Under the pieces are notes generated by a model. The model saw only the letters and a list, made by a program, of their open reading frames with translations, had not been told where the DNA came from and did no database searches. A DNA stretch of 64,000 bases from Arthrobacter koreensis. Its GTDB lineage: Bacteria; Actinomycetota; Actinomycetes; Actinomycetales; Micrococcaceae. Positions within the stretch are counted from its first letter, which is position 1, and each line of letters begins with the position of its first letter. The position numbers and the translations under genes were made by a program. This document shows positions 3,571 through 59,120 of the stretch, piece after piece. The DNA is taken from the NCBI RefSeq assembly GCF_009193255.1, contig NZ_WACG01000001.1, positions 1 to 64,000 of the forward strand, in the 5' to 3' direction.

Positions 3571-3576
3571 GCTGCA

Positions 3577-3627
3577 ATTCTAGGAAGAGCGTCCAGATGG
3601 CGGTCAACATGTCTCGCATAATGAGAC
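3577..3627 (-). promoter_or_regulatory. leuB promoter with upstream inverted repeat
   Basis: Minus-strand -35 TTGACC at 3607-3602, 19-base spacer, -10 TAGAAT at 3582-3577. Immediately upstream is the inverted repeat GTCTCGCATAATGAGAC (3611-3627; 5-bp arms). Its half ATAATGAGAC also occurs at the ilvB promoter (minus strand 19300-19291). The pattern recalls sites of the IclR-family leucine regulator of actinobacteria (LtbR/NdgR); that match is from memory and is an inference. Confidence 0.55.
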
Positions 3628-3745
3628 GCACGACCGCGGCACGACGGAACGTGTCGCCATCCTGGGATGACGCCCCTCCGCCCGAACGGCAAATCAGACC
3701 ATGGCATGAGGTAGGGACCGCAGTGCGGGCCTAAAGTTGTTGTCC

Positions 3746-5011: not shown

Positions 5012-5014
5012 CGC

Positions 5015-5737: not shown

Positions 5738-5753
5738 CTCCCCGGAGGTACCC

Positions 5754-5834
5754 ATGGTGTCCGCAGAAGCAGCGGCGCAGGAGCTGCTGCCGGAGTCCTA
5801 CCGGCTGGCGGGGCCGGTTCCACCCACGGGATGA
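5754..5834 (+). CDS. Possible 26-residue small protein
   Basis: A short frame, MVSAEAAAQELLPES..., of 26 codons lies between the response regulator and the ABC transporter. It begins 16 bases after the regulator stop and has a well-placed GGAGG (5744-5748) five bases before the ATG, better than the sites of some neighbouring real genes. It has no transmembrane segment and matches nothing I recognise. It may be a small protein, a translational relay, or the remnant of a longer gene. Conservation in related genomes would decide. Confidence 0.35.
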   Translation: MVSAEAAAQELLPESYRLAGPVPPTG

Positions 5835-5904
5835 GAAGGGGCGTGGAACATACCCGCCCCTGACCCGATGTGCCGGGCATGCCGCCGCCAATAGCGTAGA
5901 GGGC

Positions 5905-6675
5905 ATGACAACCCTTACTGAGCACTCCGCTGCGCCGGGACCCGGCAGCTCCACGGCTGCCGCCGCCGCGCAGGCCCTGAACAAGACCTACGGAAAAGGC
6001 GACACCGCCGTTCACGCCCTGCGCGACGTCGACGTCCGCTTCGAAACCGGCACCTTCACCGCCATCATGGGCCCCTCCGGCTCGGGCAAATCCACATTGA
6101 TGCACTGCCTCGCCGGCCTGGACAGCGCCGACTCAGGCCACATCTGGATTGGCGGAACCGAAATCACTTCCCTCAAGGATGCTGAGATCACTCGGCTGCG
6201 CCGCGACAGCGTCGGCTTCGTGTTCCAGTCCTTCAACCTGGTCCCCACGCTGACCGCCGAACAGAACATCACCCTCCCGGTGTCCCTTGCCAACGGCAAG
6301 GTTGATGCCGCCTGGCTCGCCGAGATCACGCGCACCCTTGGCCTCGAGGGCAGGCTCAAGCACCGTCCCCATGAACTTTCCGGCGGCCAGCAGCAGCGCG
6401 TCGCAGTTGCCCGCGCGCTGCTGACCCGCCCGCACGTCATCTTCGGTGACGAGCCCACCGGCAACCTCGATTCGCGCTCGGGCGCCGAAGTCCTCTCGCT
6501 GCTGCGGCGTTCCTCACGCGAGATGGGCCAGAGCATCATCATGGTCACCCATGATCCAGTAGCTGCTTCCTACGCGGACCGCGTGGTGCTGATGAATGAC
6601 GGCGCGCTCGTGGGCGAGCTGAACAACCCCACGCCGGAAAGCGTACTGGCAGCGCTGACGAAGCTGGGGGCATAA
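5905..6675 (+). CDS. ABC transporter ATP-binding protein (LolD/MacB type)
   Basis: A 256-residue ATPase subunit with Walker A GPSGSGKST, Q-loop FVFQSFNLVPTLT, signature LSGGQQQR and Walker B HVIFGDEPTGNLD. The FQSFNL-type Q-loop and DEPTGNLD are typical of the MacB/LolD/FtsE class, which powers mechanotransmission or export rather than nutrient uptake. It is followed after 2 bases by its FtsX-type permease and preceded by a two-component system, an arrangement often used for antimicrobial-peptide or envelope-stress defence in Gram-positive bacteria. The substrate is unknown. Confidence 0.93.
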   Translation: MTTLTEHSAAPGPGSSTAAAAAQALNKTYGKGDTAVHALRDVDVRFETGTFTAIMGPSGSGKSTLMHCLAGLDSADSGHIWIGGTEITSLKDAEITRLRRDSVGFVFQSFNLVPTLTAEQNITLPVSLANGKVDAAWLAEITRTLGLEGRLKHRPHELSGGQQQRVAVARALLTRPHVIFGDEPTGNLDSRSGAEVLSLLRRSSREMGQSIIMVTHDPVAASYADRVVLMNDGALVGELNNPTPESVLAALTKLGA

Positions 6676-43709: not shown

Positions 43710-44870
43710 CTAGCTGCGGGTCCCGGCTGGACCCGCCAGCCTCCGAACCCGTTCCACGGCGCCGCTGAGGGCCCGAGCGGCCAGTGCAACCTCGCTCTCC
43801 CGAACCGACGGCGGGAAACTGAGGCGGACCGCAGTCTGCGCGGTTTCCCTGTCCATCCCCATGGCGGTCAGCACTGCGGAGGGCTCATCCGAACCTGCCG
43901 CGCACGCGGAGCCGGAGGAACAGAGCACCCCTGCCCGCTCAGCTTCCAGCAGGACAGACTCGCCGCTGGTTCCGGGGAAGCAGAAGGAAGCATGCCCGGG
44001 CAGCCTGTCCGTCCGGTGACCGGTCAGCAGGGCTCCGGGCACTGAGTCCAGGACCGTCTCAATGAGGTAGTCGCGCAGTTTTGCGGCACGGGGTGCGGCT
44101 GCCTGGCGTTCCTGGTCTGCGAGCTTCAGGGCCGTAGCCATGGCAACCGCACCGGCAACGTTCTCGGTCCCTGACCGGCGGCCGCGTTCCTGGCCGCCGC
44201 CGTGAAGCAGCGGTTCAAGGGGCAGGACACCGCGGACGTACAGCAGGCCGCAGCCCTTGGGTGCGCCAAGCTTGTGGCCGGAAATGCTCATCGCGTCGAT
44301 TCCCGTACCGGTTACGGAGACCGGCAGCCAGCCGGCGGCCTGCACTGCGTCCGTGTGGAACGGTATGCCGCGGGCCCGGCACGCGGCGGCGATCTCCGCG
44401 ACCGGCTGGAGTGTTCCCACCTCGTTGTTGGCCGTCATGATGGTGCACAGGGTGGTGTCATGTGTCAGCGCCGCTTCCACCGCAGCCGCGTCCACCCGTC
44501 CCGTTCCGTCTACCGGGACCAGGGTGATGCGGAAGCCATGGAAGCGCTGCAGGTAGGCCAGGGACTCCAGCACGGCCGGATGCTCGACGGCGCTGGAGAC
44601 AATGTGCCGTCCCTGCGGCGAGGCCAGTGCCAGGCCCTTGATGGCGAGGTTGTCCGCCTCGGTGCCGCCGGATGTGAAGACAATATCTCCTGGCCGGACG
44701 CCGAGCACGTCCGCAGCGGTGCGCCGGGCATAGTCCAGGGCGCGGGCCGCCGTCTCACCCGCCGAATGTGTGCTGGAGGGGTTGCCGAAATCGCTGGTGT
44801 ACAGGGGCGCCAGCGCCGCCAGCACTTCGGGCCGGACCGGTGTGGTGGCTGCGGCGTCGAAGTAGATCAT
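43710..44870 (-). CDS. nadS: Cysteine desulfurase of the NAD operon (NadS-type)
   Basis: A 386-residue class V PLP enzyme of the IscS/NifS family. The PLP lysine is in SISGHKLGAPKG and the sulfur-carrying cysteine is in VLCSSGSACAAGSDEPS. It overlaps nadC by four bases (ATGA). In Corynebacterium glutamicum a desulfurase at the end of the ndnR-nadA-nadC operon (nadS) is needed for NadA activity, most likely for its 4Fe-4S cluster; position here argues for the same role. It could also serve general sulfur transfer. Confidence 0.88.
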   Translation of the reverse strand: MIYFDAAATTPVRPEVLAALAPLYTSDFGNPSSTHSAGETAARALDYARRTAADVLGVRPGDIVFTSGGTEADNLAIKGLALASPQGRHIVSSAVEHPAVLESLAYLQRFHGFRITLVPVDGTGRVDAAAVEAALTHDTTLCTIMTANNEVGTLQPVAEIAAACRARGIPFHTDAVQAAGWLPVSVTGTGIDAMSISGHKLGAPKGCGLLYVRGVLPLEPLLHGGGQERGRRSGTENVAGAVAMATALKLADQERQAAAPRAAKLRDYLIETVLDSVPGALLTGHRTDRLPGHASFCFPGTSGESVLLEAERAGVLCSSGSACAAGSDEPSAVLTAMGMDRETAQTAVRLSFPPSVRESEVALAARALSGAVERVRRLAGPAGTRS

Positions 44871-45790
44871 GCGCGGATGTCCAGGCCCAGGTCCAGCGCA
44901 CGGACACTGTGGGTCAGGGCGCCGGCGGAGATGATGTCCACGCCCGTGGCCGCAATCGCGGCCACGGTGTCCAGCCGGACGTTGCCGCTGGCCTCGGCCA
45001 GCGCCCGTCCGTCGATGGCCTCCACCCCGCGGCGCAGGTCTTCGATGCTGAAGTTATCCAGCAGTACCGTGTCCGCTCCGCCGGCCAGCACAGCTTCGAT
45101 CTGTTCCAGGGAATCCACTTCCACCTCGAAATGCACGGTGTGGGAGAGCCCGTCCTTGGCCTGGCGGAGTGCGGATGCCAGGTCTCCACCGGATGCGGCC
45201 AGGACGGCCAGGTGGTTGTCCTTTGCCATGACTGCGTCGGACAGCGAATAGCGGTGGTTAAACCCGCCTCCGCAGCGCACTGCGTAGCGTTCGAGCGCCC
45301 GCAGCCCCGGGGTTGTCTTGCGGGTGTCGGCGATGCGCGCGCCGGTGCCTTCGGTTTCGGCAACGAAGCGGGCCGTCAGGGTGGCGATCCCGGAGAGCCG
45401 CTGGGCAAGGTTCAGGGCCACCCGTTCGGCGGCGAGGATGGTCCTGGCCGGCCCGCTGATTTCGGCGAGGATTCCTCCGGCATCGAACCGCTCGCCGTCA
45501 CGGACCAGGCTGATCACTGCCGCGCCGGGGCCGGCGAGCCGAAACGCGGCCTCGATGACCTGCGTGCCGCAGAAGATGCCCTCTTCCCTGGCGGTCAGGA
45601 AGGCGGTGGCGTCGGCGTCCTCGGGGATCAGGGCAAGCGACGTGAGGTCTCCCCACGGTGCATCCTCTGCGAGCGCAGCCGCGACCACGTGGTCAACCGC
45701 GGGGCCGGGAACGGGCAGCGGTGACGCCCCGGCGTTTGGCGGCAGCGGTTTGGGCGAGGGGGTTTCAGTCGGCGGCAGGGTATTCGTCAT
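44867..45790 (-). CDS. nadC: Nicotinate-nucleotide pyrophosphorylase (carboxylating)
   Basis: A 307-residue quinolinate phosphoribosyltransferase forming nicotinate mononucleotide. NLAQRLSGIATLTARFV, DTRKTTPGLRALERYAVRCGGGFNHRYSLSDAVMAKDNHL and VEVDSLEQ are all in place. The first 28 residues are a Pro-rich extension. The stop overlaps the nadS ATG; the start is 21 bases after nadB. Confidence 0.95.
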   Translation of the reverse strand: MTNTLPPTETPSPKPLPPNAGASPLPVPGPAVDHVVAAALAEDAPWGDLTSLALIPEDADATAFLTAREEGIFCGTQVIEAAFRLAGPGAAVISLVRDGERFDAGGILAEISGPARTILAAERVALNLAQRLSGIATLTARFVAETEGTGARIADTRKTTPGLRALERYAVRCGGGFNHRYSLSDAVMAKDNHLAVLAASGGDLASALRQAKDGLSHTVHFEVEVDSLEQIEAVLAGGADTVLLDNFSIEDLRRGVEAIDGRALAEASGNVRLDTVAAIAATGVDIISAGALTHSVRALDLGLDIRA

Positions 45791-45811
45791 CTGGGTATTT
45801 CCGTTCTTGGG

Positions 45812-47467
45812 TCAGGCAAATTCCGGGAGCGGGACGGTGCCCGGGCGATGGATGGCAGGTGCAGCCGGTGTTCCGGGCACCCCCTGCGGAGCGTCGGTGC
45901 GGAAATGCGCGCCGATCGATACACTCCTGCGCAGCGCGGCTCCAACGACCAGCCGGGCGCAGGTGAGCAGGTTGGCATCTTCGAGGGCCCTGATGTGTCC
46001 TTCCCTGCCGGAAAGAACCGGCAGGGCGCCGTCGAGCACGCCTGCTGCCTCGCGCAGTCCGGCCGCACTGCGCAGCACCCCGGCTTTCTCCCACATCAGG
46101 GACTGCAGGGCGGTGCGCCCGAACGGCTGCGCTCCGGACGGGGCTTCCAGCGCGTGCTGGGAGGACGGGGAGGACGCCGTCCCGGAACAGGGAGTGCCGG
46201 CGGCCTCCGGGACTCGCCGGATTCCCGCCCACAGCCCCGCGGGTGTCCCGGCGTCCCACGCCCGTCCGGCATCCGGCGCAGTGCAGGCCGCAGCAGCTCT
46301 GGCTCCAAAGACCAGGCCTTCCAGCAGGGAGTTCGAGGCAAGCCGGTTGGCTCCGTGGACTCCGGTACAGGCAGCCTCTCCCGCCGCGTAGAGCCCTGGA
46401 ACGGAGGTCCGGCCGGACAGGTCCGTGGCAACGCCGCCCATCCAGTAGTGTGCTGCCGGCACTACCGGCAGCAGTTCGCGTTCCCAGTCGAATCCGTGTG
46501 CGGCGGTGACCTCGGCCAGGCCCGGGAATCGGCTGGCCAGGAATCCGGGCCCCCGGCGCCGGGCAACCCCGGTGGCATCCAGCCAGACGGTGTCCTCCCC
46601 CGTGTCCTCCCCCGCGCCCGCCAGGTGACGGACGATCGAACGGGAGACAACGTCGCGTGGCGCCAGCTCGGCGTCGCGGTGGTAGCCGGTCATGAACCTG
46701 CCGCCCCGGCTGTCGCGGAGCACCGCGCCCTCACCGCGGACCGCTTCGGAAATCAGCGGGGTGCCGGGTACGGCGAGCGCGGTGGGATGGAACTGGAAGA
46801 ACTCCTCGTCCCTCGTTTCCGCCCCCGCCCGCCGGGCCAGGGCAATGCCGTCTCCTGTGGAGCCGGCAGGGTTGGTGGTGTGCCGGTAGAGTTCGCCTGC
46901 TCCGCCCGTTGCCAGGACAACGGCGTCCACGGCGAGCCGCTGCCCGCGCCCCTCTGTCAGGACCTCCAGCCCGGAGACACTGCCGCCGGTGAGAACCACG
47001 CGAACGGCGAACGCGTTCTCCAGGACCGTAATCCGGGGATGCGGGCGCACAGCCGCCATGAGTGCCGCGGCGATGCCCGCACCGGTGGCGTCCCCGCCAA
47101 TGTGCAGGATCCGCCGGGCCGTATGGGCGGCTTCCCGGGCAAGCGCCGGTGACCCGTCGGGATTGGCATCGAAGGTAGTGCCGAGCTTTTGCAGGCGCCG
47201 GATGTGGGCTCCGGCTTCCCGGCAGAGCACTGTGGCAGCGGCACGATTTCCTGTCCAGGCGCCCGCCGACAGGGTGTCCTCGCAGTGGGAGGCCGGCGTG
47301 TCCCCGCTGGAGGACTCCATGACAGCGGCGATTCCTCCCTGTGCGTGCCAGGTGCTGCTGTGCTGCAGCGCGGACTTGGACACCAGCAGCACCGGGGTGT
47401 GCTGCTCCGCTGCGCAGAGCGCCGCGTACAGGCCGGCGATCCCGCTGCCAACGACGGCGATGCTCAA
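45812..47467 (-). CDS. nadB: L-aspartate oxidase
   Basis: A 551-residue FAD enzyme that makes iminoaspartate, the NadA substrate. The FAD motif is VVGSGIAGLYAALCAAE; HAQGGIAAVME, VVLATGGAGELYRHTTNP, FFQFHPTAL and GLYAAGEAACTGVHGANRLASNSLLEGLVFG are family signatures. Part of the C-terminal helical domain is shorter or more Ala/Gly-rich than in Escherichia coli. It overlaps nadA by four bases (ATGA). C. glutamicum is reported to lack nadB in its ndnR operon, so this operon is the more complete version. Confidence 0.95.
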   Translation of the reverse strand: MSIAVVGSGIAGLYAALCAAEQHTPVLLVSKSALQHSSTWHAQGGIAAVMESSSGDTPASHCEDTLSAGAWTGNRAAATVLCREAGAHIRRLQKLGTTFDANPDGSPALAREAAHTARRILHIGGDATGAGIAAALMAAVRPHPRITVLENAFAVRVVLTGGSVSGLEVLTEGRGQRLAVDAVVLATGGAGELYRHTTNPAGSTGDGIALARRAGAETRDEEFFQFHPTALAVPGTPLISEAVRGEGAVLRDSRGGRFMTGYHRDAELAPRDVVSRSIVRHLAGAGEDTGEDTVWLDATGVARRRGPGFLASRFPGLAEVTAAHGFDWERELLPVVPAAHYWMGGVATDLSGRTSVPGLYAAGEAACTGVHGANRLASNSLLEGLVFGARAAAACTAPDAGRAWDAGTPAGLWAGIRRVPEAAGTPCSGTASSPSSQHALEAPSGAQPFGRTALQSLMWEKAGVLRSAAGLREAAGVLDGALPVLSGREGHIRALEDANLLTCARLVVGAALRRSVSIGAHFRTDAPQGVPGTPAAPAIHRPGTVPLPEFA

Positions 47468-48768
47468 GGCCGGACCGCCAGCATCCGTTCCAGGGCCGTG
47501 CGGGCGGCGGCCGCTGCCGCGTCCGGCACGGCGATCCGGTTGCGGACCTCTCCGGTCATGAGTCCCTCAAGCACCCAGGCGAGGTAGCCGGGATGGATGC
47601 GGTACATGGTGGAGCATGGGCAGATGACCGGGTCGAGGCAGAAGATGGTGTGTTCCGGATGCTGTGCAGCCAGCCGGTTCACCATGTTGATTTCGGTACC
47701 TATAGCGAAGGTGCTTCCGGCGGGCGCCGCGGCTATGGCTTTCTGGATGTAGTCCGTGGAGCCGGATTCGTCAGCGGCATCCACGACGGGCATGGGGCAT
47801 TCGGGATGCACAATCACCCGGACACCGGGGTGGTCGGCCCTGGCCTGGTCTATCTGGCCCACTGTGAAGCGCTTGTGCACGGAGCAGAACCCGTTCCAGA
47901 GCAGGACCTTCGCCTGCAGCAGGCGTTCCGGAGTGTTTCCGCCCAGCGGGAGGCGCGGATTCCACAGGGGCATGGCTTCCAGCGGAATACCCATGGCCTT
48001 GGCGGTATTGCGGCCCAGGTGCTGGTCCGGGAAGAAGAGGACCCGCTGGCCCCGTTCGAATGCCCATTCCAGCACGGACGCGGCGTTGGAGGATGTGCAG
48101 ACAATGCCGCCGTTTTCTCCGCAGAAGGCTTTCAGTGCGGCTGAGGAGTTCATGTAGGTCACCGGGATGACCGGCTGCTTCCCGCCGCTTTCCGGTGCCC
48201 TCCCGTACAGCATGGTGAGCTGCTCCCAGCATTCGGCGACCGAATCGGCGTCGGCCATATCTGCCATGGAACAACCTGCGGCAAGGTTCGGCAGCACCAC
48301 CGCCTGGTCCGGACCGGAGAGCAGGTCCGCTGTTTCCGCCATGAAGTGGACGCCGCAGAACACGATAGCTTCGGCCTCCGGACGGCCCCTGGCTGCGCGG
48401 GCCAGCTGGAAGGAGTCCCCCACAAAGTCTGCATGCCGCACCACCTCGTCCCGCTGGTAGAAGTGCCCGAGTATCACCACACGGCTGCCCAGTGCGGCCT
48501 TGGCACGAAGGATCCGCTCGTCTAGCTCTGCCGCGCCCGCCTCGCGGTACTCGGCCGGAAGTTCCCCTTGGCGCGGTGTTCCGGCGGGGACCGGATCCGC
48601 GAGGGACGCGCCGGGCCCGTATCCAGGGACCGTGTCGAAGGACCAGGGGTCGGCGGCAAGGCCGGGGGTGCAGGTGGCGGCGGCACGTGCCTGGGCCTGG
48701 GCGGGTCCGGAAAGCAGGGCGATCCTCGTGGCTACGCTGCCGCCGGGGACCGGAATCGTTTCAGTCAT
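47464..48768 (-). CDS. nadA: Quinolinate synthase
   Basis: A 434-residue 4Fe-4S enzyme that condenses iminoaspartate with dihydroxyacetone phosphate. Cluster cysteines are in IVFCGVHFMAETADLL, IVHPECPMPVV and LDPVICPCSTMYRIHPGYL. The N-terminus is about 80 residues longer than minimal NadA, as in other actinobacteria. ATG 48768 follows the nrtR stop by one base (TGACATG); the longer open frame overlapping nrtR is a shadow. Cytoplasmic. Confidence 0.95.
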   Translation of the reverse strand: MTETIPVPGGSVATRIALLSGPAQAQARAAATCTPGLAADPWSFDTVPGYGPGASLADPVPAGTPRQGELPAEYREAGAAELDERILRAKAALGSRVVILGHFYQRDEVVRHADFVGDSFQLARAARGRPEAEAIVFCGVHFMAETADLLSGPDQAVVLPNLAAGCSMADMADADSVAECWEQLTMLYGRAPESGGKQPVIPVTYMNSSAALKAFCGENGGIVCTSSNAASVLEWAFERGQRVLFFPDQHLGRNTAKAMGIPLEAMPLWNPRLPLGGNTPERLLQAKVLLWNGFCSVHKRFTVGQIDQARADHPGVRVIVHPECPMPVVDAADESGSTDYIQKAIAAAPAGSTFAIGTEINMVNRLAAQHPEHTIFCLDPVICPCSTMYRIHPGYLAWVLEGLMTGEVRNRIAVPDAAAAAARTALERMLAVRP

Positions 48769-48769
48769 G

Positions 48770-49498
48770 TCAGTGCTCCATTGCTTCTGGTCTTTGGCTG
48801 GGAAAGGACTCGTCCCGGGGATCCGGGCCGGTGTAGCGGTACAGCCGCGGCGGCCGGTGCCGTCCGCCCTGGAGGTAGTGCTCAGTGGGTTCAATGTGCA
48901 CCGATGCCTGCAGCTGGCGGCGGAAGTTCGCTGGGTCCAGTTCGCGTCCCAGCACGGCTTCATAGACCTCACGGACCTGTGCAAGGGTGAAGGTGGAGCC
49001 GAGGAACGCATAGGCCACGGTGCCGTACTCGAGTTTGTTGCGCAGGCGCCAGAGTGCGTACTCCACAATCTGGTTGTGGTCGAAGGCCAGCGTCCCCACC
49101 TTGTCGGCCCGGAACCAGGCAACGTTTTCGTCCTGCCTGGCCAATGCGGCCTCGTCCGGCTGGACCAGCGCCCAGTAGACGATTGAAACCACCCGGGGGG
49201 ACGGTGACCGGTCCGGCCCGCCGAAGGCGTAGAGCTGTTCAAGGTACCGCGGCGTCAGTGCCGTAGTTTCCCGCAGGTTCCGGGCCGCTGCGTCCTGAAG
49301 GGATTCGCTGGGCCGCAGCGGGCCGCCGGGCAGCGCCCACAGATCCAGGTAGGGCTGCCTGATGCGGCGGACCAATGGCAGCCACACCGTCAGGGTCCCG
49401 GTATCCGGGTCCGGGCGCAGCGCGAAAATAACCGTTGAAATGGCCAGCGACGGTGGTTCCTGTTCCCGTTCCGAAACATTGGCGTATCTGGGGCTCAT
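48770..49498 (-). CDS. ndnR: Nudix-type repressor of NAD synthesis (NrtR/NdnR)
   Basis: A 242-residue NrtR-family regulator: a Nudix-like ligand domain (about 15-150) followed by a winged helix (FDHNQIVEYALWRLRNKLEYG, FTLAQVREVYEAVLGRELDPANFRRQL). The Nudix box is degenerate: PLRPSESLQDAAARNLRETTAL lacks the REUXEE glutamates needed for hydrolysis, consistent with a sensor rather than an enzyme. It is the first gene of ndnR-nadA-nadB-nadC-nadS, and an inverted repeat covers its own promoter. By family precedent, NAD or a derivative controls DNA binding. Confidence 0.9.
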   Translation of the reverse strand: MSPRYANVSEREQEPPSLAISTVIFALRPDPDTGTLTVWLPLVRRIRQPYLDLWALPGGPLRPSESLQDAAARNLRETTALTPRYLEQLYAFGGPDRSPSPRVVSIVYWALVQPDEAALARQDENVAWFRADKVGTLAFDHNQIVEYALWRLRNKLEYGTVAYAFLGSTFTLAQVREVYEAVLGRELDPANFRRQLQASVHIEPTEHYLQGGRHRPPRLYRYTGPDPRDESFPSQRPEAMEH

Positions 49499-49606: not shown

Positions 49607-50104
49607 TTACGCGCTCTTCCCGGGCTCGGCGGTGTCCGATCCCGCCGCTGCATGGAGCAGCGGCAGCATCCGGCCTTCGAAGTGGGTATTGAGGACAATC
49701 ACGGAGGATGACCTCAGAACGGCGCCGGTAGCAACCATTGAGTCAATGACACGCTGCAGGTCGGAGTTGGACCGGGCAGCCACCCGGGCGATGAGGTCAC
49801 TCTCCCCGGAGACTGTGTGGGCTTCCTGGATTTCAGGGATCTCTGCGAGCGCCGCGACGACGGCGTCATGCCCCATATCCTGCCGGATGGTCAGCGAGCA
49901 GTATGCCGTGACAACGTAGCCGAGGGCCGCGGGGTCGAGCCGGGGCCCCCACCCCGCTATGACGCCGCTGCGCTGCATCCGATCCAGTCTTGCCTGCACC
50001 GTAGCGCGGGCAACCTTGAGGGTCCGTGAGGCTTCCAGGACCGACATCCGCGGATCGTCGGTAAAGAGGGACACAATGCGGGCGTCGAGCTGATCTGTTG
50101 CCAT
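49607..50104 (-). CDS. Lrp/AsnC-family transcriptional regulator
   Basis: A 165-residue regulator with an N-terminal helix-turn-helix (LDARIVSLFTDDPRMSVLEASRTLKVARATVQARLDRMQRSGVI) and a C-terminal RAM effector domain (AHTVSGESDLIARVAARSNSDLQRVIDSM). ATG 50104 has AAAGG upstream; the frame extends to 50227 without a start signal. It points away from the 2-oxoacid dehydrogenase operon. Lrp-type genes commonly sit beside branched-chain 2-oxoacid dehydrogenase genes and activate them (BkdR), so that operon is a plausible target, inferred from location. Confidence 0.9.
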   Translation of the reverse strand: MATDQLDARIVSLFTDDPRMSVLEASRTLKVARATVQARLDRMQRSGVIAGWGPRLDPAALGYVVTAYCSLTIRQDMGHDAVVAALAEIPEIQEAHTVSGESDLIARVAARSNSDLQRVIDSMVATGAVLRSSSVIVLNTHFEGRMLPLLHAAAGSDTAEPGKSA

Positions 50105-50506
50105 GGCGGCCTTTCCCTGCAGGAGATCCGGGCTAATCCGGACATCCGCCCGGGACAGGGCGCACTGTGCCACCCCTGAGGGAACTTTAGCGGCACGGGA
50201 GGAAGTATCGCACCGCGCCACGCACACATAAGTGCAGACCAGGGACGGGGACAGACATTTGAGTCTAGAAATGGATTAGAACCACGAACCCAAAAAAGTA
50301 TCCGCAAAAAAGGTACAAATTATTTACACAGACACGTTATCCATGCGGCATGGGTTTTAATGCGGGCAACCGGGAATCTTGGTAAGAACAGAAACCCGGC
50401 CCAATTCCGAACCTGAGACATTCGGAAACCATAAGACCGGCCCCGACGGAGTAGCCGCCCTGCCCGGCGCCGGGCCTATGGCAGGGCGGCTGCAAACCCC
50501 TGGAAC
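50105..50506. other. Intergenic region with an AT-rich block
   Basis: No gene is supported here. About 50262-50400 is visibly richer in A and T than the rest of the window (runs such as CCCAAAAAAGTATCC and ACAAATTATTTACAC) and presumably holds promoter or operator sequences for the Lrp gene. A small CCATG/CATGG hairpin followed by TTTT lies at 50341-50358 on the plus strand. A hairpin with a perfect 11-bp stem (GCCGCCCTGCC, 50454-50464, with 50480-50490) sits just beyond the small basic protein gene. Confidence 0.6.
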
Positions 50507-50965: not shown

Positions 50966-52009
50966 ATGGACCTAGACACATCGAGCATCCCTGAGCTCAC
51001 AGCCGAGGAACTGCGCCAGCTGTACAAACTGCTCATCGCCACCCGCGACCTGGACGTGGCAGCGGTGGCCTGGCAGCGCCAGGGCATCCTTCCGGGCTAC
51101 GCTCCGGAGCTTGGACAGGAGGCCGCCCAGGTAGGGAGCGCCTTTGCCCTCGACACTTCACGCGACTTCGCGTTCCCCACTTACCGCGAGATGGGCGTCG
51201 CCCTGTCCCTGGGCGTGGACATGGTGGAATACATGTCCACGCACAAGGCCAGCTGGCACGGGGGGCTCTACAACCCTGTCAGCACGAGGCTAGCGCCAAT
51301 CCAGGCCGTGGTCGGCGGCTCTGTGCTGCACGCCGTCGGCTGGGCCCACGGCCAGCGGCTCGCCGCCGGTGCCGGCAGCGCCGAAGCCGGGCTGCCCGCC
51401 GCCATCACCTACTTCGGAGACGGCGCCAGCTCGCAGGGCGACGTGCATGAAGCCATGAACTTCGCCGGTGTGCTCAAAGCCCCGGTGGTGTTCTTCGTCC
51501 AAAACAACGGCTGGGCCATCTCCCTGCCCACTGAGGAACAGGTAGCCGGCGGCACTGTGGCAGCTCGAGCGGCGGGGTATGGAATGGCCTCGGTGACCGT
51601 GGACGGCAACGATGCCCCCGCCGTCGTGCGTGCCACCCGGGCCGCCCTTGAGCACGCCCGGGCAGGAAACGGACCGGTGCTCATCGAAGCAATGACCTAC
51701 CGCCGCGGACCACACTCAACCAGTGATGATCCGGGCCGCTACCGCACCCTCGACGAAGAGCGCCGCGACGGCGGCGAGGATCCCGTAGCCCGGCTGGCAG
51801 CCCTGCTGCTCGAAACCGGCGCAGCAGACCAGTCCTTCATCGACGACGCCGCCGCCGAAGCAAAGGCACACACCGACACCGTCCGCGAAGGCATCCAGGC
51901 ACTCCAGCCGCGTCCGGGACAGGAAATGTTCGACTTCGTCTTTGCCGAACCCACGAATGCACTCAAGGCCCAGGCCCGCGCCTGGCGGGAGGAATCCGAG
52001 CATGTCTAG
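50966..52009 (+). CDS. 2-oxoacid dehydrogenase E1 component, alpha subunit
   Basis: A 347-residue thiamine-diphosphate E1 alpha. The ThDP motif is TYFGDGASSQGDVHEAMNFAGVLKAPVVFFVQNNGWAIS, and RRGPHSTSDDPGRYR corresponds to the regulatory phosphorylation loop. ILPGYAPELGQEAAQVG and FPTYREMGVALSLGVDMVEYM are typical of branched-chain/pyruvate dehydrogenase alpha chains of actinobacteria rather than AcoA. The most likely substrates are branched-chain 2-oxo acids, possibly pyruvate; an acetoin role cannot be ruled out given the unusual downstream genes. First gene of a four-gene operon, probably leaderless. Confidence 0.9.
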   Translation: MDLDTSSIPELTAEELRQLYKLLIATRDLDVAAVAWQRQGILPGYAPELGQEAAQVGSAFALDTSRDFAFPTYREMGVALSLGVDMVEYMSTHKASWHGGLYNPVSTRLAPIQAVVGGSVLHAVGWAHGQRLAAGAGSAEAGLPAAITYFGDGASSQGDVHEAMNFAGVLKAPVVFFVQNNGWAISLPTEEQVAGGTVAARAAGYGMASVTVDGNDAPAVVRATRAALEHARAGNGPVLIEAMTYRRGPHSTSDDPGRYRTLDEERRDGGEDPVARLAALLLETGAADQSFIDDAAAEAKAHTDTVREGIQALQPRPGQEMFDFVFAEPTNALKAQARAWREESEHV

Positions 52010-53042
52010 CCAGCTGACCGAAGGAGTACGCCCCATGGAGGCCGGCTCCGCTTCGGACACCACCGAAACCCTGTCCATGCAGGCGGCCCTGAACCGGGCC
52101 CTTTCGGAAATCCTCGCCGATGATCCCAAGGCCGTAGTGCTCGGGGAAGACGTGGGCCGGCTCGGCGGCGTGTTCCGCATAACCGACGGACTGCAGAAGC
52201 GCTTCGGTGCTGACCGGGTCTTCGACACGCCGCTGGCCGAATCCGGCATCCTGGGGATGTCCGTGGGCCTGGCGATGGCCGGATTCCGTCCTATTCCCGA
52301 GGTCCAGTTCGACGGATTCGCCTATCCCGCGGTCAATCAGATCATCACCCAGCTCGCCCGCATGAACTACCGCAGCCGGGGCACCATGCCAATGCCGGTT
52401 ACCCTGCGCGTGCCCAGCTTTGGCGGAATCCGCGCGCCTGAGCACCACGGCGAGTCCCTCGAGGCACTGTTCGCGCACGTTCCGGGCCTGAAGGTCGTTT
52501 CGCCGTCGAGCCCCCACCAGGCCTACCACCTGCTCAAGCACGCGGCAGCGCAGCCGGATCCCGTCATCTTCATGGAACCGAAGTCCCGCTACTGGCAGAA
52601 GGACTCCGTGGACCTGGGCACCCCGGGGAACCTGCAGGGCTCACACGTGGTCCGCGAGGGCAGGCACCTGACCCTGGTTGCCTGGGGAGCGATGGTTGCA
52701 CGGTGCCTGCAGGTTGCCGAGCTCGCCGCCGAGGACGGAATCGACATCGAGGTCCTGGACCTGCGCTGGCTGAAGCCGATCGACGCCGAAGGGCTGGCTG
52801 CCTCGGTCTCCAAGACCCGGCGCGCCGTCGTCGTGCATGAAGCCCCGCTGACCGCCGGGCTGGGAGCGGAAGTTGCGGCGCTCATCACGCAGCACTGTTT
52901 CGACACACTCAAGGCTCCGGTGGAGCGGGTCACCGGATTCGACGTACCGTATCCCTCGGGTGACCTGGAAGACGAATACATCCCGAACATTGACCGGATC
53001 CTCTTTGGGATCCAGCGAGTATTGGAGTACCGGCGTGGCTGA
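52002..53042 (+). CDS. 2-oxoacid dehydrogenase E1 component, beta subunit
   Basis: A 346-residue transketolase-like E1 beta. VVLGEDVGRLGGVFRITDGLQKRFG, DTPLAESGILGMSVGLAMAG, EVQFDGFAYPAVNQIITQLARM and RAPEHHGESLEALF are strongly conserved in branched-chain E1 beta proteins. ATG 52002 overlaps the end of E1 alpha by 8 bases; ATG 52035, with AAGGAG 8 bases upstream, is an equally plausible start. It overlaps the following lipoyl gene by 8 bases. It forms an alpha2beta2 E1 with the upstream product. Confidence 0.93.
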   Translation: MSSQLTEGVRPMEAGSASDTTETLSMQAALNRALSEILADDPKAVVLGEDVGRLGGVFRITDGLQKRFGADRVFDTPLAESGILGMSVGLAMAGFRPIPEVQFDGFAYPAVNQIITQLARMNYRSRGTMPMPVTLRVPSFGGIRAPEHHGESLEALFAHVPGLKVVSPSSPHQAYHLLKHAAAQPDPVIFMEPKSRYWQKDSVDLGTPGNLQGSHVVREGRHLTLVAWGAMVARCLQVAELAAEDGIDIEVLDLRWLKPIDAEGLAASVSKTRRAVVVHEAPLTAGLGAEVAALITQHCFDTLKAPVERVTGFDVPYPSGDLEDEYIPNIDRILFGIQRVLEYRRG

Positions 53043-53364
53043 AATTTCATTCCCCCTGCCAGACCTCGGCGAAGGCCTGATCGAAGCAACTGTCCTGGAG
53101 TGGCTCGTGGCTCCCGGCGACCAGGTGGAGCGCAACCAGCCGCTGGTGGAGGTTGAAACGTCCAAGTCCGCCGTTGAACTGCCGTCTCCCCAGGCCGGCG
53201 TCGTTGCCCGCATCTACGGCGAAGCGGGTGAGAAGATCAACGTGGGCGAGCCCCTGGTGGTCTTTGAGGTTCCCGATGACACTGCGGGAATTGTCGGCAC
53301 CGTCCCGCAGGAAGCGCCGGCACGCCGCCGGGTCCGGCTCTCCGCCGTCCTGGACGAGGACTAG
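53035..53364 (+). CDS. Stand-alone lipoyl-domain protein (E2-like, no acyltransferase)
   Basis: A 109-residue protein that is essentially one lipoyl domain: FPLPDLGEGLIEATVLEWLVAPGDQV, the lipoylation site VEVETSKSAVELPSP (Lys44) and KINVGEPLVVFEVPDD. It ends with a short Pro/Arg linker (VPQEAPARRRVRLSAVLDED) where a normal E2 would continue into the E1/E3-binding and acyltransferase domains, both absent. GTG 53035 overlaps E1 beta by 8 bases. The stop is 2 bases before the hydrolase GTG. It probably acts as the swinging arm of this complex; the acyl-transfer partner is unclear. Confidence 0.9.
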   Translation: MAEISFPLPDLGEGLIEATVLEWLVAPGDQVERNQPLVEVETSKSAVELPSPQAGVVARIYGEAGEKINVGEPLVVFEVPDDTAGIVGTVPQEAPARRRVRLSAVLDED

Positions 53365-53366
53365 GC

Positions 53367-54164
53367 GTGGGCACAGGCATCGGCACCTCCCCTGCCCTGT
53401 ACACCCAAGTCCACGAGCCCGACGGCGGCACTTCCCTGCGTCCGGTGCTCGTGCTGCACGGATTTGCCTCGTCAACAGAGCTGAACTGGGAATCCACGGG
53501 CTGGATCACCGCGCTGACCGGCGCCGGACGGCGCGTCCTGACGGTGGACCTGCCTGGACACGGCCGCAGCGAGGCGCCCCGGGAACGGGAGCACTACTCC
53601 CCCAGCCGGATCCGGGCCCGGCTGCTGGACCTGCTCGCAGAGGCAGGCGTGCGCCCGCTCACCGAAGACGACCCTTCCTCCGGAGTGGACGTAGTCGGTT
53701 ACTCGCTGGGTTCGCGGCTCGCATGGGAACTGGGTGCAGCCGCTCCGGACCTGGTGCACCGCATGGTGCTGGGCGGACCGGGAGCGGGAGACCCGCTGGC
53801 TGACTTCGACCTGGACGGTGCCCGGCAGTTCCTGGCGGACGGGACGCCGCTGGCAGATCCCGTGAGCGCAGACCTGCTGCGCATGGCCCAGCTTGTGCCC
53901 AGCAATAACCTCGAGGCCCTGCTGACACTGATCGAGGCGATCAAGGACGAACCCTTCCGTCCGGAATCAGCCGTCCCGCCCATGCGGCTGCTGCTGGTTG
54001 CCGGGGAACAGGATGAGCTGGCCGTCACGGCACCGGATCTGGCAGCGCTCAACGGGCAGGCCGACCTCCTCCTGCTGCCCGGCCGCCGGCATGCCAACGC
54101 CGTGACGTCCCGGGCCTTCAAAAACGCTGCCGTCGAGTTCCTGGACATCCAGCCCCTCTCTTAA
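53367..54164 (+). CDS. Alpha/beta hydrolase of the 2-oxoacid dehydrogenase operon
   Basis: A 265-residue alpha/beta-hydrolase. VLVLHGFASS gives the oxyanion loop, VVGYSLGSRLAWE the nucleophile elbow (Ser113), GEQDE the acid (about Asp216) and RRHANAV the histidine (His242), so a full catalytic triad is present. It starts at GTG 53367, 2 bases after the lipoyl gene and in a different frame. In the AcoC-type E2 of acetoin dehydrogenase a lipoyl domain is fused to just such a hydrolase; here the two parts are separate genes. Role as an acyltransferase or thioesterase is inferred. Confidence 0.85.
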   Translation: MGTGIGTSPALYTQVHEPDGGTSLRPVLVLHGFASSTELNWESTGWITALTGAGRRVLTVDLPGHGRSEAPREREHYSPSRIRARLLDLLAEAGVRPLTEDDPSSGVDVVGYSLGSRLAWELGAAAPDLVHRMVLGGPGAGDPLADFDLDGARQFLADGTPLADPVSADLLRMAQLVPSNNLEALLTLIEAIKDEPFRPESAVPPMRLLLVAGEQDELAVTAPDLAALNGQADLLLLPGRRHANAVTSRAFKNAAVEFLDIQPLS

Positions 54165-54345
54165 GGTCAAGAGTTGGTTACGGCGGGTCAAATCGGAGCT
54201 GGAGGGGTGTCTGCGCAGGATAGGATCGAATAGTCAGTACACTGAAACTGAATTACTAAGTGTGCTTTCGATTTACCTTCGACCATTTGGTGCAGCATCC
54301 ATCCATGTTCCATCCCCGCAGTTTCAACCTTAAGTGAGGACGCCC

Positions 54346-55290
54346 GTGGACTTATTCCTGGGGCAGCGTTACCGCACCACCGACCTGATCGGCACCGGTG
54401 GCGCTGCTTCCGTGCACCGGGCGATGGATGAGAACCTGGGCCGCGAAGTTGCCGTCAAGGTCTTCCGCCCCACCGTGCAGGAGGATGACGACTACCGCCG
54501 CCAGCACACCGAAACCCTGCTCCTGGCAACCCTGAACCATCCCGGACTGGTCACGCTGCTGGACGCCGGCCTGCACCGCGAGGAAGACGGCCAGGTGCTG
54601 AACTACCTCGTCATGGAACTGGTGGATGGTCCGGACCTGCGCCGCACCCTCAAATCCGGTCCGTTGCCGGCCGTATCAGTGGCCTCCCTGGGAGCAGACC
54701 TGGCTGACGCACTGGCCTACGTGCACTCCAAAGGCGTGATCCACCGGGACGTGAAGCCGGCGAACATCCTGCTCTTCCCCCAGGAACACGATTCACGCCT
54801 CTATCCCAAGCTCACCGACTTCGGCATCGCGCGGCTCGTCGAGGCTACGGTCGCCACCGCGCACGGCGCCACCATCGGCACCGCCAACTACCTCAGCCCG
54901 GAACAGGCGCAGGGCGGGACGGTAGCTCCGTCCACTGACATCTACTCCCTGGGACTCGTGCTGCTTGAGTCGCTGACCGGCGAAAAGGCCTTCCCGGGCC
55001 CGATTGTCGAAGCCGCTGTTGCTCGGCTGCTCCGCGATCCCGAAATCCCCGACTCCCTCGGTCCGGATTGGGTGGACCTGCTCCGTGCCATGACCAACCG
55101 GCTCCCGGATGCCCGGCCGGCCGCGCACGAGGCAGCTTCGGCGCTTCGCGCCCTCGCTGTAGAGCCGGAGACGGCCATCCCGCATGCTGACGACGAAGAG
55201 CCGGACGCCGAAGAAGTCTGCACGGGCGGAGTGACAACGGGTAACATCTACATCCCGCTGCCACCCACGCACGCCCCGAGCCTGGGCTAG
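54346..55290 (+). CDS. Soluble serine/threonine protein kinase
   Basis: A 314-residue Hanks-type kinase. The glycine loop is LIGTGGAASVHRA, the ATP lysine is in REVAVKVFRP, the catalytic loop is GVIHRDVKPANILLF and the magnesium motif is KLTDFGIARL; GTANYLSPEQAQGG is the P+1 region. There is no transmembrane segment or PASTA/sensor domain; the C-terminus is acidic (DDEEPDAEE) then Pro-rich. GTG 54346 with GAGGA 7 bases upstream is preferred over GTG 54334. It stands alone behind a 170-base, fairly AT-rich intergenic region. Targets unknown. Confidence 0.9.
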   Translation: MDLFLGQRYRTTDLIGTGGAASVHRAMDENLGREVAVKVFRPTVQEDDDYRRQHTETLLLATLNHPGLVTLLDAGLHREEDGQVLNYLVMELVDGPDLRRTLKSGPLPAVSVASLGADLADALAYVHSKGVIHRDVKPANILLFPQEHDSRLYPKLTDFGIARLVEATVATAHGATIGTANYLSPEQAQGGTVAPSTDIYSLGLVLLESLTGEKAFPGPIVEAAVARLLRDPEIPDSLGPDWVDLLRAMTNRLPDARPAAHEAASALRALAVEPETAIPHADDEEPDAEEVCTGGVTTGNIYIPLPPTHAPSLG

Positions 55291-55629: not shown

Positions 55630-56544
55630 CTACGAACCGTCCCCGGAGCCGCCGCCGTCAGCCAGCACCCCGTGGGTAGCCGCCGAGACGTGCGGGACTG
55701 TAGTCCGTGGCGCGGCCGACGCCGCGGGAGCAGCCTGGCCCTTGTTCTGCTTGGCAATCTGGATCTGCTCGTACACGTGGTTGCGGAGCTCAACGAAGCG
55801 CGGAAGCGACCGGGTGGTGAGCTGGTCGCGCTTCTCCGGAAGGTCGATCACGATGTCTTCCTGCACCACCGTGGGCGAGCTGGACAGAACCACGACCCGC
55901 TCCCCGAGATAGACGGACTCGTCAATGTCGTGCGTGACGAACAGGATCGTGACGCCGAGCTTCTCCCAGACACTGCGCACCAAGTCCTCAAGATCGGCAC
56001 GCGTCTGGGCGTCGACGGCGGCAAACGGCTCGTCCATCAGCAGTACCTTGGGCTGGTACGCCACGGCGCGGGCGATAGCCACACGCTGCTGCATGCCGCC
56101 GGAGAGCTGCCACGGGTAGCTGGTGGGCACGTGCGCCAGGCCAACGGCCTCCAGGGCATCGTCCACAAGCTGGTTGCGCTCGGCCTTGGCGATCCCCGCG
56201 TTCTTGAGGGGGAGCTCCACGTTGCCGCGGACCGTCATCCAGGGGAAGAGGCTCCGCCCGTATTCCTGGAACACCACTGCCATGTCCTTGGGCGGTTCGG
56301 TGACTTTCTTTCCCGCCAGGACCACCTCACCGGAGGTAGGTGCCATCAGGCCGGCGATGATCTTCAACAGGGTGGTCTTGCCGCTGCCCGAAGGGCCAAC
56401 CAGGCAGACGAGCTCACCCGGGCGAAGGTCGAAGGTCAGGTTGCGGACAGCTTCGATCTCCCCCGCGTCGACCTTGTAGATCTTCTGGACGCCCCGGACC
56501 GACAGCAGCGGCTGGACGGAGCCTTCCGTGGGATTACTCTGCAT
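55630..56544 (-). CDS. ABC transporter ATPase (NitT/TauT family)
   Basis: A 304-residue ATPase of the SsuB/TauB class: Walker A VGPSGSGKTTLLK, Q-loop VVFQEYGRSLFPWMTV, signature LSGGMQQRVAIARAVA, Walker B VLLMDEPFAAVDAQTRADLE. The C-terminus is extended by about 40 Ala/Gly-rich residues. It overlaps the adjacent permease gene by 11 bases and is the last gene of a four-gene uptake operon. Confidence 0.92.
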   Translation of the reverse strand: MQSNPTEGSVQPLLSVRGVQKIYKVDAGEIEAVRNLTFDLRPGELVCLVGPSGSGKTTLLKIIAGLMAPTSGEVVLAGKKVTEPPKDMAVVFQEYGRSLFPWMTVRGNVELPLKNAGIAKAERNQLVDDALEAVGLAHVPTSYPWQLSGGMQQRVAIARAVAYQPKVLLMDEPFAAVDAQTRADLEDLVRSVWEKLGVTILFVTHDIDESVYLGERVVVLSSSPTVVQEDIVIDLPEKRDQLTTRSLPRFVELRNHVYEQIQIAKQNKGQAAPAASAAPRTTVPHVSAATHGVLADGGGSGDGS

Positions 56545-57307
56545 GTTCTACCTCTCTCAAACCGTGGTACCAGCCGAGGATGCGGCGTTCGGACCACTGG
56601 AACAAAAATGACATGGCCACGCCGATCAGGCCAAGGACCACAATGCCGCTCCACATTTCGGGGATAGCGAAGGACCGCTGGAACTGGACGATGGTGAAGC
56701 CCAGGCCCTCGGAGGACGCAAACATCTCCGAGATGACCATGAGGATCAGGCCGATTGACAGGCACTGGCGGACGCCGGCCATGATCTGCGGGCTGGCACT
56801 GGGAAGCACCAGGTAACGCAGCCGGGCAAACCCGCTGATGCGGAAGGTGCGGGCGGAATCGCTGAGCACGCCGTCGACGGCGCGGACGCCCTCAATGGTG
56901 TTCAGAAGGACCGGCCAGATGCAGCCGGAGACAATGACCGCGATCTTCATCTGGTCATTGATGCCGATCAGCAGCATCAGCACCGGGATGAGCACTGGCG
57001 GAGGGATTGCCCGGAAGAATTCGAGCACCGGTTCCAGCAGGCTGCGCAGCCAGCGGTTGGTGCCCACGAGGATGCCCAGGGCGGTGCCGAGCACAATGGC
57101 CAGCGCAATGCCCGCTACCAGGCGAATGAGGCTCGGCAGCACGTCCGCCATGAAGCGGTCCCAGGTCCACACCGTCACGAACTTCTCAACCAGGGTGCCC
57201 GGTTTCGGGACGAAGAAGTTTGTGCTGCCCTGGGTGCTGAACCACCAGATGAAGATCAGCAGCGCCGGCAGGCCTACAAGGTAGCCCGCTTTCTTGAGCG
57301 TGTTCAT
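56534..57307 (-). CDS. ABC transporter permease (NitT/TauT family), first
   Basis: A 257-residue inner-membrane permease with six hydrophobic segments, SsuC-like. The EAA-type loop is TFRISGFARLRYLVLPSASPQIMAGVRQCLSIG. It overlaps both neighbours. Having two different permease genes in one operon implies a heterodimeric channel. Confidence 0.9.
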   Translation of the reverse strand: MNTLKKAGYLVGLPALLIFIWWFSTQGSTNFFVPKPGTLVEKFVTVWTWDRFMADVLPSLIRLVAGIALAIVLGTALGILVGTNRWLRSLLEPVLEFFRAIPPPVLIPVLMLLIGINDQMKIAVIVSGCIWPVLLNTIEGVRAVDGVLSDSARTFRISGFARLRYLVLPSASPQIMAGVRQCLSIGLILMVISEMFASSEGLGFTIVQFQRSFAIPEMWSGIVVLGLIGVAMSFLFQWSERRILGWYHGLREVEHAE

Positions 57308-58092
57308 ACCACTACCTCCCCGCGGACCGAGCTGTGCCAGGACAACGTGCGGCGTTCAACCACGCGCATGCCCATGTTGATCAGGATGCCCAGCACACCG
57401 GTGGTCAGCACCAGAGCGTACATCTGGGCAATTGCGCCGCCGGACTGTGCGTTGGCAATCTCCTTGCCCAGTCCGGGCGAACCGATGATCAGGCTCGCCG
57501 TGATAGCCAGGATCAGGGCAACGGCAGCGGCAAGCCGGACGCCGGTCATCAGGTACGGAAGGGTGGTGGGCCACACGACGTAGCGGATCCTTGCCATGCG
57601 GCCCAGGCCGAAACTCTTGGCCGTGTTGTTGGCCACCGGGTCCACATCCGCTACCCCGTACAGGACCTGGATCAGGACCTGCCAGAAGGATGCGTACACC
57701 ACCAGCAGCAGCGTCGATTCGATGCGGAAGCCGAACAGCAGGACGGCCAGCGGAATCAGGGCCACCGACGGGATGGGGCGGAGGAATTCGATGGTGGAGT
57801 TGGTTGCCTTGCGGAGGAAGTTGCTGGAACCGATCACCAGGCCCAGGACCACCGCAGCAACGGTGGCAATCAACAGCCCAAGGAACCAGCCCGTCATGGT
57901 GTCAACCACGGCGGCCCAGAACGCACCAAGGCCGAGGTTGTTGATGAAGACTCCCAGCACCTCACTGGCCGGAGGCAGGAATCGGGGGTTGACCACTCCA
58001 AGCCGGGGAATCAGTTCCCAGGTCAGCAGGAACCCGAGGATTCCGGCCAGCCCCAGCAACGGCCCCGTGGGGAGACGTTTTGCGGATTTCAT
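57304..58092 (-). CDS. ABC transporter permease (NitT/TauT family), second
   Basis: A 262-residue permease paralogous to its neighbour; EAA-type loop KSFGLGRMARIRYVVWPTTLPYLMTGVRLAAAVA. Four-base ATGA overlap with the next permease gene. It follows the binding-protein gene by 41 bases. Confidence 0.9.
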   Translation of the reverse strand: MKSAKRLPTGPLLGLAGILGFLLTWELIPRLGVVNPRFLPPASEVLGVFINNLGLGAFWAAVVDTMTGWFLGLLIATVAAVVLGLVIGSSNFLRKATNSTIEFLRPIPSVALIPLAVLLFGFRIESTLLLVVYASFWQVLIQVLYGVADVDPVANNTAKSFGLGRMARIRYVVWPTTLPYLMTGVRLAAAVALILAITASLIIGSPGLGKEIANAQSGGAIAQMYALVLTTGVLGILINMGMRVVERRTLSWHSSVRGEVVV

Positions 58093-58133
58093 ATGCTCTC
58101 GTTCTTCTCGAACCGGGCGGAGGGGGCTCGCTG

Positions 58134-59120
58134 CTAGTCCTGTGCCGGCAGCATGGCGTCCAGGTCCGGTGCCTTGGACAGCGTGCCGTAGCTGGCTGCT
58201 GCTTCTCCGAGAATCGTCAGGCCTTCTCGGTCGAAGTCTGCGTGGAAGGCAGGCAGGACCATCTTGGCGCGCATTTCTTCGTCGATCTTGGTGTAGGTCC
58301 CTACGATTTCCCGGACCGCGTCAGGGTTTTCCTGTGCGTACTCCAGCGACTTCTTCATGGCGCGGGTGAACTTTTCGACAGTCTCCGGATTCTCCTGGAT
58401 GTACGCGGAGGTGGTGAAGTAGCCGCTGATGTCCAGGCTCGGGTGCGTTTCCGCGAAGTTGTAGGCAATGACCCGGGCGCCATTCTCGACGGTCTGGGTC
58501 AGGAAGGGATCCAGGATCCAGGCGGCGTCAACCTGGCCGGACTCAATGGCGGCGGGCGCGTCGGGGAAAGCCACCTCGACGAACTTGATGCTTTCCTGGT
58601 CCCCGCCCGCGTTCTCCACGAGCTTCCGGATGGTGGTATCACCGATGTTTGAAAGGTTATTGACGGAAACCGTCTTGCCGGCCAGGTCTGCCGCAGTTTG
58701 GATATCCGATCCGGCGGGGACGACGACGGCCCCGAAGTCCGAAGAAGTGTCCCCGGTGGTTGAATTACCGTTCGAGACCAGCTCGATGTCCAGACCCTTG
58801 TCATTGGCGACCATGACGGAAACGACGTTGCCAAAGGCAAAGTCGAAGTCTCCGCTCACCACGCCCGGCACGGCAGCCGCCCCGCCGGTGGTGGTCTGGA
58901 TATCCAGGTCCAGGCCTTCGGCCTCAAAGAATCCCTGCTCCTTGCCCAGCCAAATAGGGGCGGTATCCACGATTGGCATAATTCCCACCGAGAGGGTGGT
59001 GAGACCGGAGGCGCCTCCTGCATCGGACGTGCTTTCGTCTCCGGAAAGGGATCCGCCTCCACAGGCACTGAGGGTCAAAGCGGCCGCTGCGGCCAGGAGG
59101 ACGGGGGCATTGCGTTTCAC
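58134..59120 (-). CDS. NMT1/SsuA-like substrate-binding lipoprotein
   Basis: A 328-residue binding protein. Signal peptide with lipobox LTLSACGGG (Cys20). The mature domain begins SVGIMPIVDTAPIWLGKEQGFFEAEGLDLDIQ, the hallmark of nitrate/sulfonate/pyrimidine-precursor binding proteins, and AIESGQVDAAWILDPF is also conserved. The ligand cannot be assigned; sulfonates, taurine, thiamine precursors and aromatic acids are possible. It heads the operon; an inverted repeat lies about 100 bases upstream. Confidence 0.9.
   Translation of the reverse strand: MKRNAPVLLAAAAALTLSACGGGSLSGDESTSDAGGASGLTTLSVGIMPIVDTAPIWLGKEQGFFEAEGLDLDIQTTTGGAAAVPGVVSGDFDFAFGNVVSVMVANDKGLDIELVSNGNSTTGDTSSDFGAVVVPAGSDIQTAADLAGKTVSVNNLSNIGDTTIRKLVENAGGDQESIKFVEVAFPDAPAAIESGQVDAAWILDPFLTQTVENGARVIAYNFAETHPSLDISGYFTTSAYIQENPETVEKFTRAMKKSLEYAQENPDAVREIVGTYTKIDEEMRAKMVLPAFHADFDREGLTILGEAAASYGTLSKAPDLDAMLPAQD

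Follow-up and report, generated by a model that had tools for sequence, protein, structure and literature searches.

The 64,000-nucleotide window analysed here (positions 1 to 64,000 of contig NZ_WACG01000001.1, assembly GCF_009193255.1, from Arthrobacter koreensis) carries a compact operon in which the genes for the two chains of a 2-oxoacid dehydrogenase (E1alpha and E1beta) are followed by those for a free-standing lipoyl carrier protein (LIP) and an alpha/beta hydrolase (ABH) (Table 1). E1alpha and E1beta overlap by 8 base pairs (bp), as do E1beta and LIP, and a gap of 2 bp separates LIP from ABH. A domain scan of the operon found neither a peripheral subunit-binding domain (PSBD) nor a 2-oxoacid_dh acyltransferase core, and no product qualifies as an E2 acyltransferase; LIP has PF00364 as its sole domain, followed by a tail of 25–30 residues. 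The original prediction, made from the letters of the DNA, had described this layout without an E2 core, a 109-residue protein with a single lipoyl domain and short linker, E1 chains of the branched-chain/pyruvate type and a hydrolase with an intact Ser113-Asp216-His242 set, all of which our analysis bears out.

Table 1 Features of the operon and its divergent regulator (window coordinates).
Feature	Position	Strand	Details
E1alpha (2-oxoacid dehydrogenase)	50966-52009	+	347 aa; PF00676 240 bits; thiamine diphosphate (TPP) motif GDG...NN intact
E1beta	52002-53042 (ATG start)	+	346 aa; PF02779+PF02780
LIP, free-standing lipoyl carrier protein	53035-53364 (GTG start)	+	109 aa; PF00364 73.6 bits; lipoyl Lys44
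ABH, alpha/beta hydrolase, proposed acyl-lipoyl thioesterase	53367-54164 (GTG start)	+	265 aa; PF00561/PF12697; Ser113-Asp216-His242
Lrp/AsnC-family regulator, divergent from operon	49607-50227, start codon uncertain	-	PF01037/PF13404

Their domains (PF00676, PF02779/PF02780) and the GDG...NN motif place the E1 chains among the branched-chain/pyruvate-type enzymes. Against TIGR03181, the NCBIfam equivalog for pyruvate dehydrogenase (PDH), E1alpha scored 378 bits, under the cut-off of 411, and its nearest solved structures are the Geobacillus PDH E1 and the human branched-chain 2-oxoacid dehydrogenase E1. The operon E1beta is 47–51% identical to three E1beta paralogues of its own genome. Compared with the three genome paralogues, the E1 clade of the operon has 12 specific invariant residues in the alpha chain and 15 in the beta chain, a pattern that hints at a substrate unlike that of the paralogues. 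LIP is predicted to be lipoylated at Lys44 (motif ETSKS), a residue shared by all 12 aligned LIPs from several families; the alignment also shows a conserved tail, GIVGxVP...RRVRL. With 46–53% identity to the E2 lipoyl domains of its own genome, where it is the only E2-type lipoyl domain in a short frame, LIP looks like the truncated N-terminus of a branched-chain-type E2. We considered the RRVRL tail as a system-specific docking motif and rejected it; two complete E2s of the same genome (L002, L004) carry a similar stretch, G-Y-G...RRxR, after the lipoyl domain, so the tail may be inherited.

The four-gene unit is conserved. Among 151 genomes of the window's family (Micrococcaceae), 52 encode a stand-alone LIP (71–100% identity, nearly full length) and 99 encode ABH, including 47 without LIP. 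ABH lies directly downstream of LIP on the same strand in all 52 LIP-bearing genomes (from coordinates or fetched loci) and also follows LIP in every LIP locus read outside the family. A search of other actinobacteria, proposed with the original prediction, found the order E1alpha–E1beta–LIP–ABH in Micrococcaceae, where Paenarthrobacter aurescens TC1 is one carrier (L163), in Microbacteriaceae, where the Leifsonia, Diaminobutyricibacter and Agrococcus loci all have it, and in Nocardiopsidaceae. Carriers at order and class level include Nocardiopsis, Streptomonospora, Marinactinospora and relatives (family f35, 20 genomes) and one genome of another family that has the same order at an unrelated genomic place (L095). 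Both E1 and ABH were counted at 78 of 80 named LIP loci; the other two are L160, which has E1–LIP–ABH outside the position filter, and L212, which lacks E1. The latter (Arthrobacter sp. AQ5-06, 3282-6159) retains permease, LIP and ABH, has lost E1alpha and most of E1beta, and is a decay intermediate still keeping LIP beside ABH. With ABH downstream of stand-alone LIP in all 52 family genomes and the same order found again in two further families, the gene set reflects more than chance, and its LIP–hydrolase pairing is both deep and recurrent. The Lrp gene stays beside the unit in nearly all relatives, and an amino-acid (APC) permease gene belongs to the operon in many. The Nocardiopsidaceae operon is followed by an ATP-binding cassette (ABC) transporter, which was considered as a clue to the substrate and set aside, being of the uninformative BMP/PnrA type.

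PF00198 acyltransferase cores occur at five other places in the 3.55-Mb A. koreensis genome and nowhere in the operon. These are a SucB-type E2, with the dihydrolipoamide dehydrogenase (E3) beside it; a fused E1/E2, presumably of the OdhA/Kgd type given a 1,294-residue frame with both PF00198 and PF00676; and three E2s that each adjoin their own E1alpha and E1beta. The operon is therefore extra to the ordinary complexes, not their replacement. The original prediction had asked whether a separate complete E2 exists; with three full E1alpha–E1beta–E2 operons plus SucB, an E2 could indeed serve LIP in trans. Branched-chain 2-oxoacid and pyruvate dehydrogenases (E1alpha2beta2) share with the operon the E1alpha, E1beta and lipoyl families, the Lrp regulator and the order E1alpha–E1beta–lipoyl, but here the E2 stops short behind its lipoyl domain, a serine hydrolase takes its place and E1beta falls in a clade of its own.

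The unit is also linked to genes for homoprotocatechuate (hpa) breakdown. In two Micrococcaceae loci (L254 and L169) the Lrp gene and E1alpha–E1beta–LIP–ABH–hpaG–gntR–hpaE–hpaD are contiguous, with hpaE and the hpaG-like gene of L254 above their respective cut-offs; two further loci (L253 and L258) have the same arrangement with a kinase gene in between. The label hpaG denotes a fumarylacetoacetate-hydrolase-family protein above the NF009399 cut-off and below that of HpaG proper, and gntR is a label read from the sequence. In Diaminobutyricibacter, the gene adjoining the operon is HpaD (TIGR02295, 415 bits; cut-off 321). Overall, HpaD and ABH are no more than 12.5 kb apart in 39 of the 99 ABH-bearing family genomes, comprising 26 of 52 with LIP (8 genera) and 13 of 47 without it (4 genera), against a chance expectation of about 0.6% per genome that must be read with shared ancestry in mind, which makes the genomes far from independent. 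This linkage bears on the original description of the E1 as branched-chain-type: the family assignment stands, while as a substrate arylpyruvates are now favoured over branched-chain acids.

Given that LIP is followed in the operon by a serine hydrolase and that a free aryl-acetic acid is the starting compound of the linked pathway, hydrolytic discharge of LIP is the simplest reading. We tentatively favour, as possible but still short of probable, a CoA-independent 2-oxoacid dehydrogenase in which ABH releases the free acid from LIP, the likeliest substrate being an arylpyruvate such as 4-hydroxyphenylpyruvate. E1 with its TPP would decarboxylate the 2-oxo acid and reductively acylate the lipoyl lysine of LIP; the Ser-Asp-His triad of ABH would then take the acyl group off the dihydrolipoyl arm as a free carboxylic acid, and the house E3 would re-oxidize the arm. 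We infer the substrate, the reaction between ABH and LIP, and that this reaction is a hydrolysis and not a transfer to CoA. With 4-hydroxyphenylpyruvate from tyrosine, the product would be free 4-hydroxyphenylacetate. The hpa pathway works on free acids, and its ring-cleavage route needs 4-hydroxyphenylacetate in that form and not as the CoA ester. This conversion is a candidate assignment, based on the genomic linkage to hpaG, hpaE and hpaD.

A 4-hydroxyphenylpyruvate oxidase step (EC 1.2.3.13) was reportedly described in Arthrobacter by Blakley in 1977, a study cited in PMC9338888 and PMC2991359. It would be the same net step as proposed here, in the same group of bacteria; it was described as an oxidase, whereas an E1–LIP–E3 system would use NAD+. 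The more ambitious claim, that a serine hydrolase replaces the E2 core and discharges LIP as free acid for actinobacterial tyrosine breakdown, thereby explaining the 1977 activity, we consider doubtful. A. arilaitensis uses tyrosine, probably via homoprotocatechuate, with the 4-hydroxyphenylpyruvate oxidase gene 'not located' (PMC2991359), and Arthrobacter sp. Rue61a grows on both tyrosine and 4-hydroxyphenylacetate (PMC3534580). With the proposal, the old question of which genes convert 4-hydroxyphenylpyruvate to 4-hydroxyphenylacetate in Arthrobacter and relatives becomes testable. 2-Oxoacid dehydrogenase complexes classically end in acyl-CoA; if the proposal is true, a hydrolase in place of the E2 core would offer the lipoyl arm a new exit, with an energy-conserving thioester given up where the next pathway requires a free acid.

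AcoC of acetoin dehydrogenase is a known E2 that joins a lipoyl domain to an alpha/beta hydrolase, and in AcoABC, as here, both parts stand behind an E1alpha/E1beta pair. The original prediction had accordingly seen in LIP and ABH a split, AcoC-like E2, which would make ABH a Ser-dependent acyltransferase passing the acyl group of LIP to CoA, with acyl-CoA as product. Besides the shared parts, the E1 belongs to acyl-CoA-forming complexes, and both halves weakly match the AcoC model NF011457 (LIP 56 bits, ABH 43–46 bits). However, the cut-off of that model is 307 bits and ABH is outscored by several hydrolases encoded elsewhere in its own genome, at up to 70 bits, so the resemblance of ABH to AcoC is generic and the AcoC label did not survive. 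In contrast to AcoC, LIP and ABH are two separate genes, and the tail of LIP is similar to the linker found in full E2s. No LIP–ABH fusion was noticed in the loci read, and a suspected fusion in the Nocardiopsidaceae relatives was discarded because the coordinate-compared loci have LIP and ABH in different frames. Together with the use of free acids by the hpa pathway, these points make a CoA-dependent transferase unlikely.

By triad, nucleophile elbow and fold, ABH is a member of the alpha/beta hydrolase superfamily, and all 68 aligned sequences share Ser113, Asp216 and His242. Its structure model is confident (predicted local distance difference test score 94.9), with a generic esterase/perhydrolase fold; a fold search returned many esterases, perhydrolases, MenH and PcaD without discriminating among them, and Escherichia coli YbfF (3bf8) came at rank 48 with a TM-score of about 0.6. 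A meta-cleavage-product hydrolase of the HsaD/BphD type was excluded, with 28.7 bits for HsaD against a cut-off of 400 and no BphD match listed.

The chemistry had originally been called undescribed, a claim that needs amending, as a lipoyl–hydrolase E2 is already known in AcoC. Moreover, human ABHD11 has been shown to be an acyl-lipoyl thioesterase that frees glutarate from a glutaryl-lipoyl peptide, with no specificity for glutaryl-CoA (PMC12643935), and serves by analogy as a precedent for ABH hydrolysing an acyl-lipoyl thioester. The likeness lies in the reaction, a serine hydrolase acting on acyl-dihydrolipoyl thioesters, which is shown for ABHD11 and proposed for ABH; ABHD11 strips glutaryl adducts from complete E2s, whereas ABH shares an operon with a free lipoyl carrier. 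The same precedent (PMC12643935) would allow ABH to be a repair enzyme that clears dead-end acyl adducts from lipoyl arms, both of LIP and of other E2s, with productive transfer by an E2 in trans. That would account for ABH in genomes without LIP as well as for the strict need of LIP for ABH, but it leaves the presence of ABH in hpa clusters unexplained, and neither the generic fold nor the rank of YbfF speaks for it; we regard a repair role as improbable. Stand-alone lipoyl carriers without an acyltransferase core have parallels in LbpA of sulfur oxidation (PMC6067878) and in GcvH, although their partners differ and LIP is most like an E2 N-terminus.

ABH is tied to LIP and yet independent of it. 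Parsimony on the ABH tree for the Micrococcaceae clade gives at least 9 changes of LIP presence. In three LIP-less loci (L045, L061, L064) the Lrp–E1alpha–E1beta–LIP stretch is missing between the NUDIX gene and ABH, and in four others (L099, L102, L104, L052) an amino-acid permease gene stands in front of ABH. The operon E1beta forms one clade, apart from the three E1beta paralogues of the A. koreensis genome. The LIP-adjoining hydrolases of Micrococcaceae, genus g14, Leifsonia/Diaminobutyricibacter, Agrococcus and Nocardiopsidaceae sit at separate places among stand-alone hydrolases, indicating that the unit repeatedly gained partners from this broad hydrolase family, whether the pairing arose anew or was renewed. 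Monophyly of the operon hydrolases was rejected by the approximately unbiased (AU) test (p=3.7e-13; p=0.023 in an earlier two-group test). The background hydrolases had been picked for their likeness to the window ABH, and the groups were defined once a first tree had been seen; the result therefore shows that hydrolases were exchanged or escaped inside a single broad family, and does not show recruitment from anywhere. In genus g14 (L096, L097) the ABH behind LIP is diverged and another ABH lies close by, an arrangement that looks like a swap of the partner hydrolase. ABH matches on plasmids are mostly stand-alone hydrolases; the Embleya one adjoins hpaD.

These patterns bear on a further explanation, that ABH works in the hpa pathway or as a general esterase, hydrolysing for instance a ring-cleavage product or an ester, and is a chance neighbour of E1–LIP, with acyl-LIP served in trans by a complete E2 core. 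The repeated changes in LIP presence and the three full E1alpha–E1beta–E2 operons of the A. koreensis genome fit it, as do loci L259 and Embleya L040, where ABH adjoins hpaG or hpaD without LIP. On the other hand, LIP never occurs without an adjacent ABH, even where its genomic place is unrelated or the ABH belongs to a different clade, LIP has no PSBD for joining a complex, and to our knowledge the hpaE/hpaG route requires no hydrolase step. On balance, we judge a bystander hydrolase somewhat unlikely.

Several observations nevertheless weigh against hydrolytic discharge of LIP for arylpyruvate breakdown. Forty-seven family genomes keep ABH but have no LIP, as expected of a bystander; the role of ABH is therefore wider than serving LIP, and we dropped the idea that it belongs to the operon alone. 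The analysis picked out no ABH residue that would be specific to the hydrolysis of acyl-lipoyl groups. HpaD is near-universal, occurring in 137 of 151 family genomes, and its presence is unassociated with LIP, so that presence or absence was discarded as a test and only position is informative. As LIP occurs in about one third of family genomes, the operon cannot be the only route to 4-hydroxyphenylacetate, and about two thirds must make this acid otherwise or take it up. In A. koreensis itself hpaG–gntR–hpaE–hpaD is intact (L257) but about 1 Mb from the operon; in the single Nocardiopsidaceae locus listed, no hpa gene was seen close to the operon, and an HpaD search of L133–L152 was negative. 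The A. koreensis genome also lacks an HpaB-type 4-hydroxyphenylacetate hydroxylase. Finally, a 4-hydroxyphenylpyruvate oxidase of A. globiformis is cited as cloned (PMC9338888) and may be a different gene.

In line with the proposal, the A. koreensis genome has no 4-hydroxyphenylpyruvate dioxygenase (HPPD) over the cut-off; one HPPD-like frame (G000:C6:319071-319967) reaches 110 bits, under the cut-off of 277, and is possibly a divergent dioxygenase. Upstream of the operon, window positions 44867-49498 hold nadC–nadB–nadA and a NUDIX protein that looks NrtR-like, a block strongly conserved beside ABH in the family. Directly 3' of ABH lies a Ser/Thr protein kinase gene (54334-55290), which stays beside ABH in many relatives, LIP-less ones included. 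It is followed on the minus strand (55630-59120) by a full ABC transporter comprising an ATPase, two permeases and a substrate-binding protein, nitrate/taurine-like in appearance.

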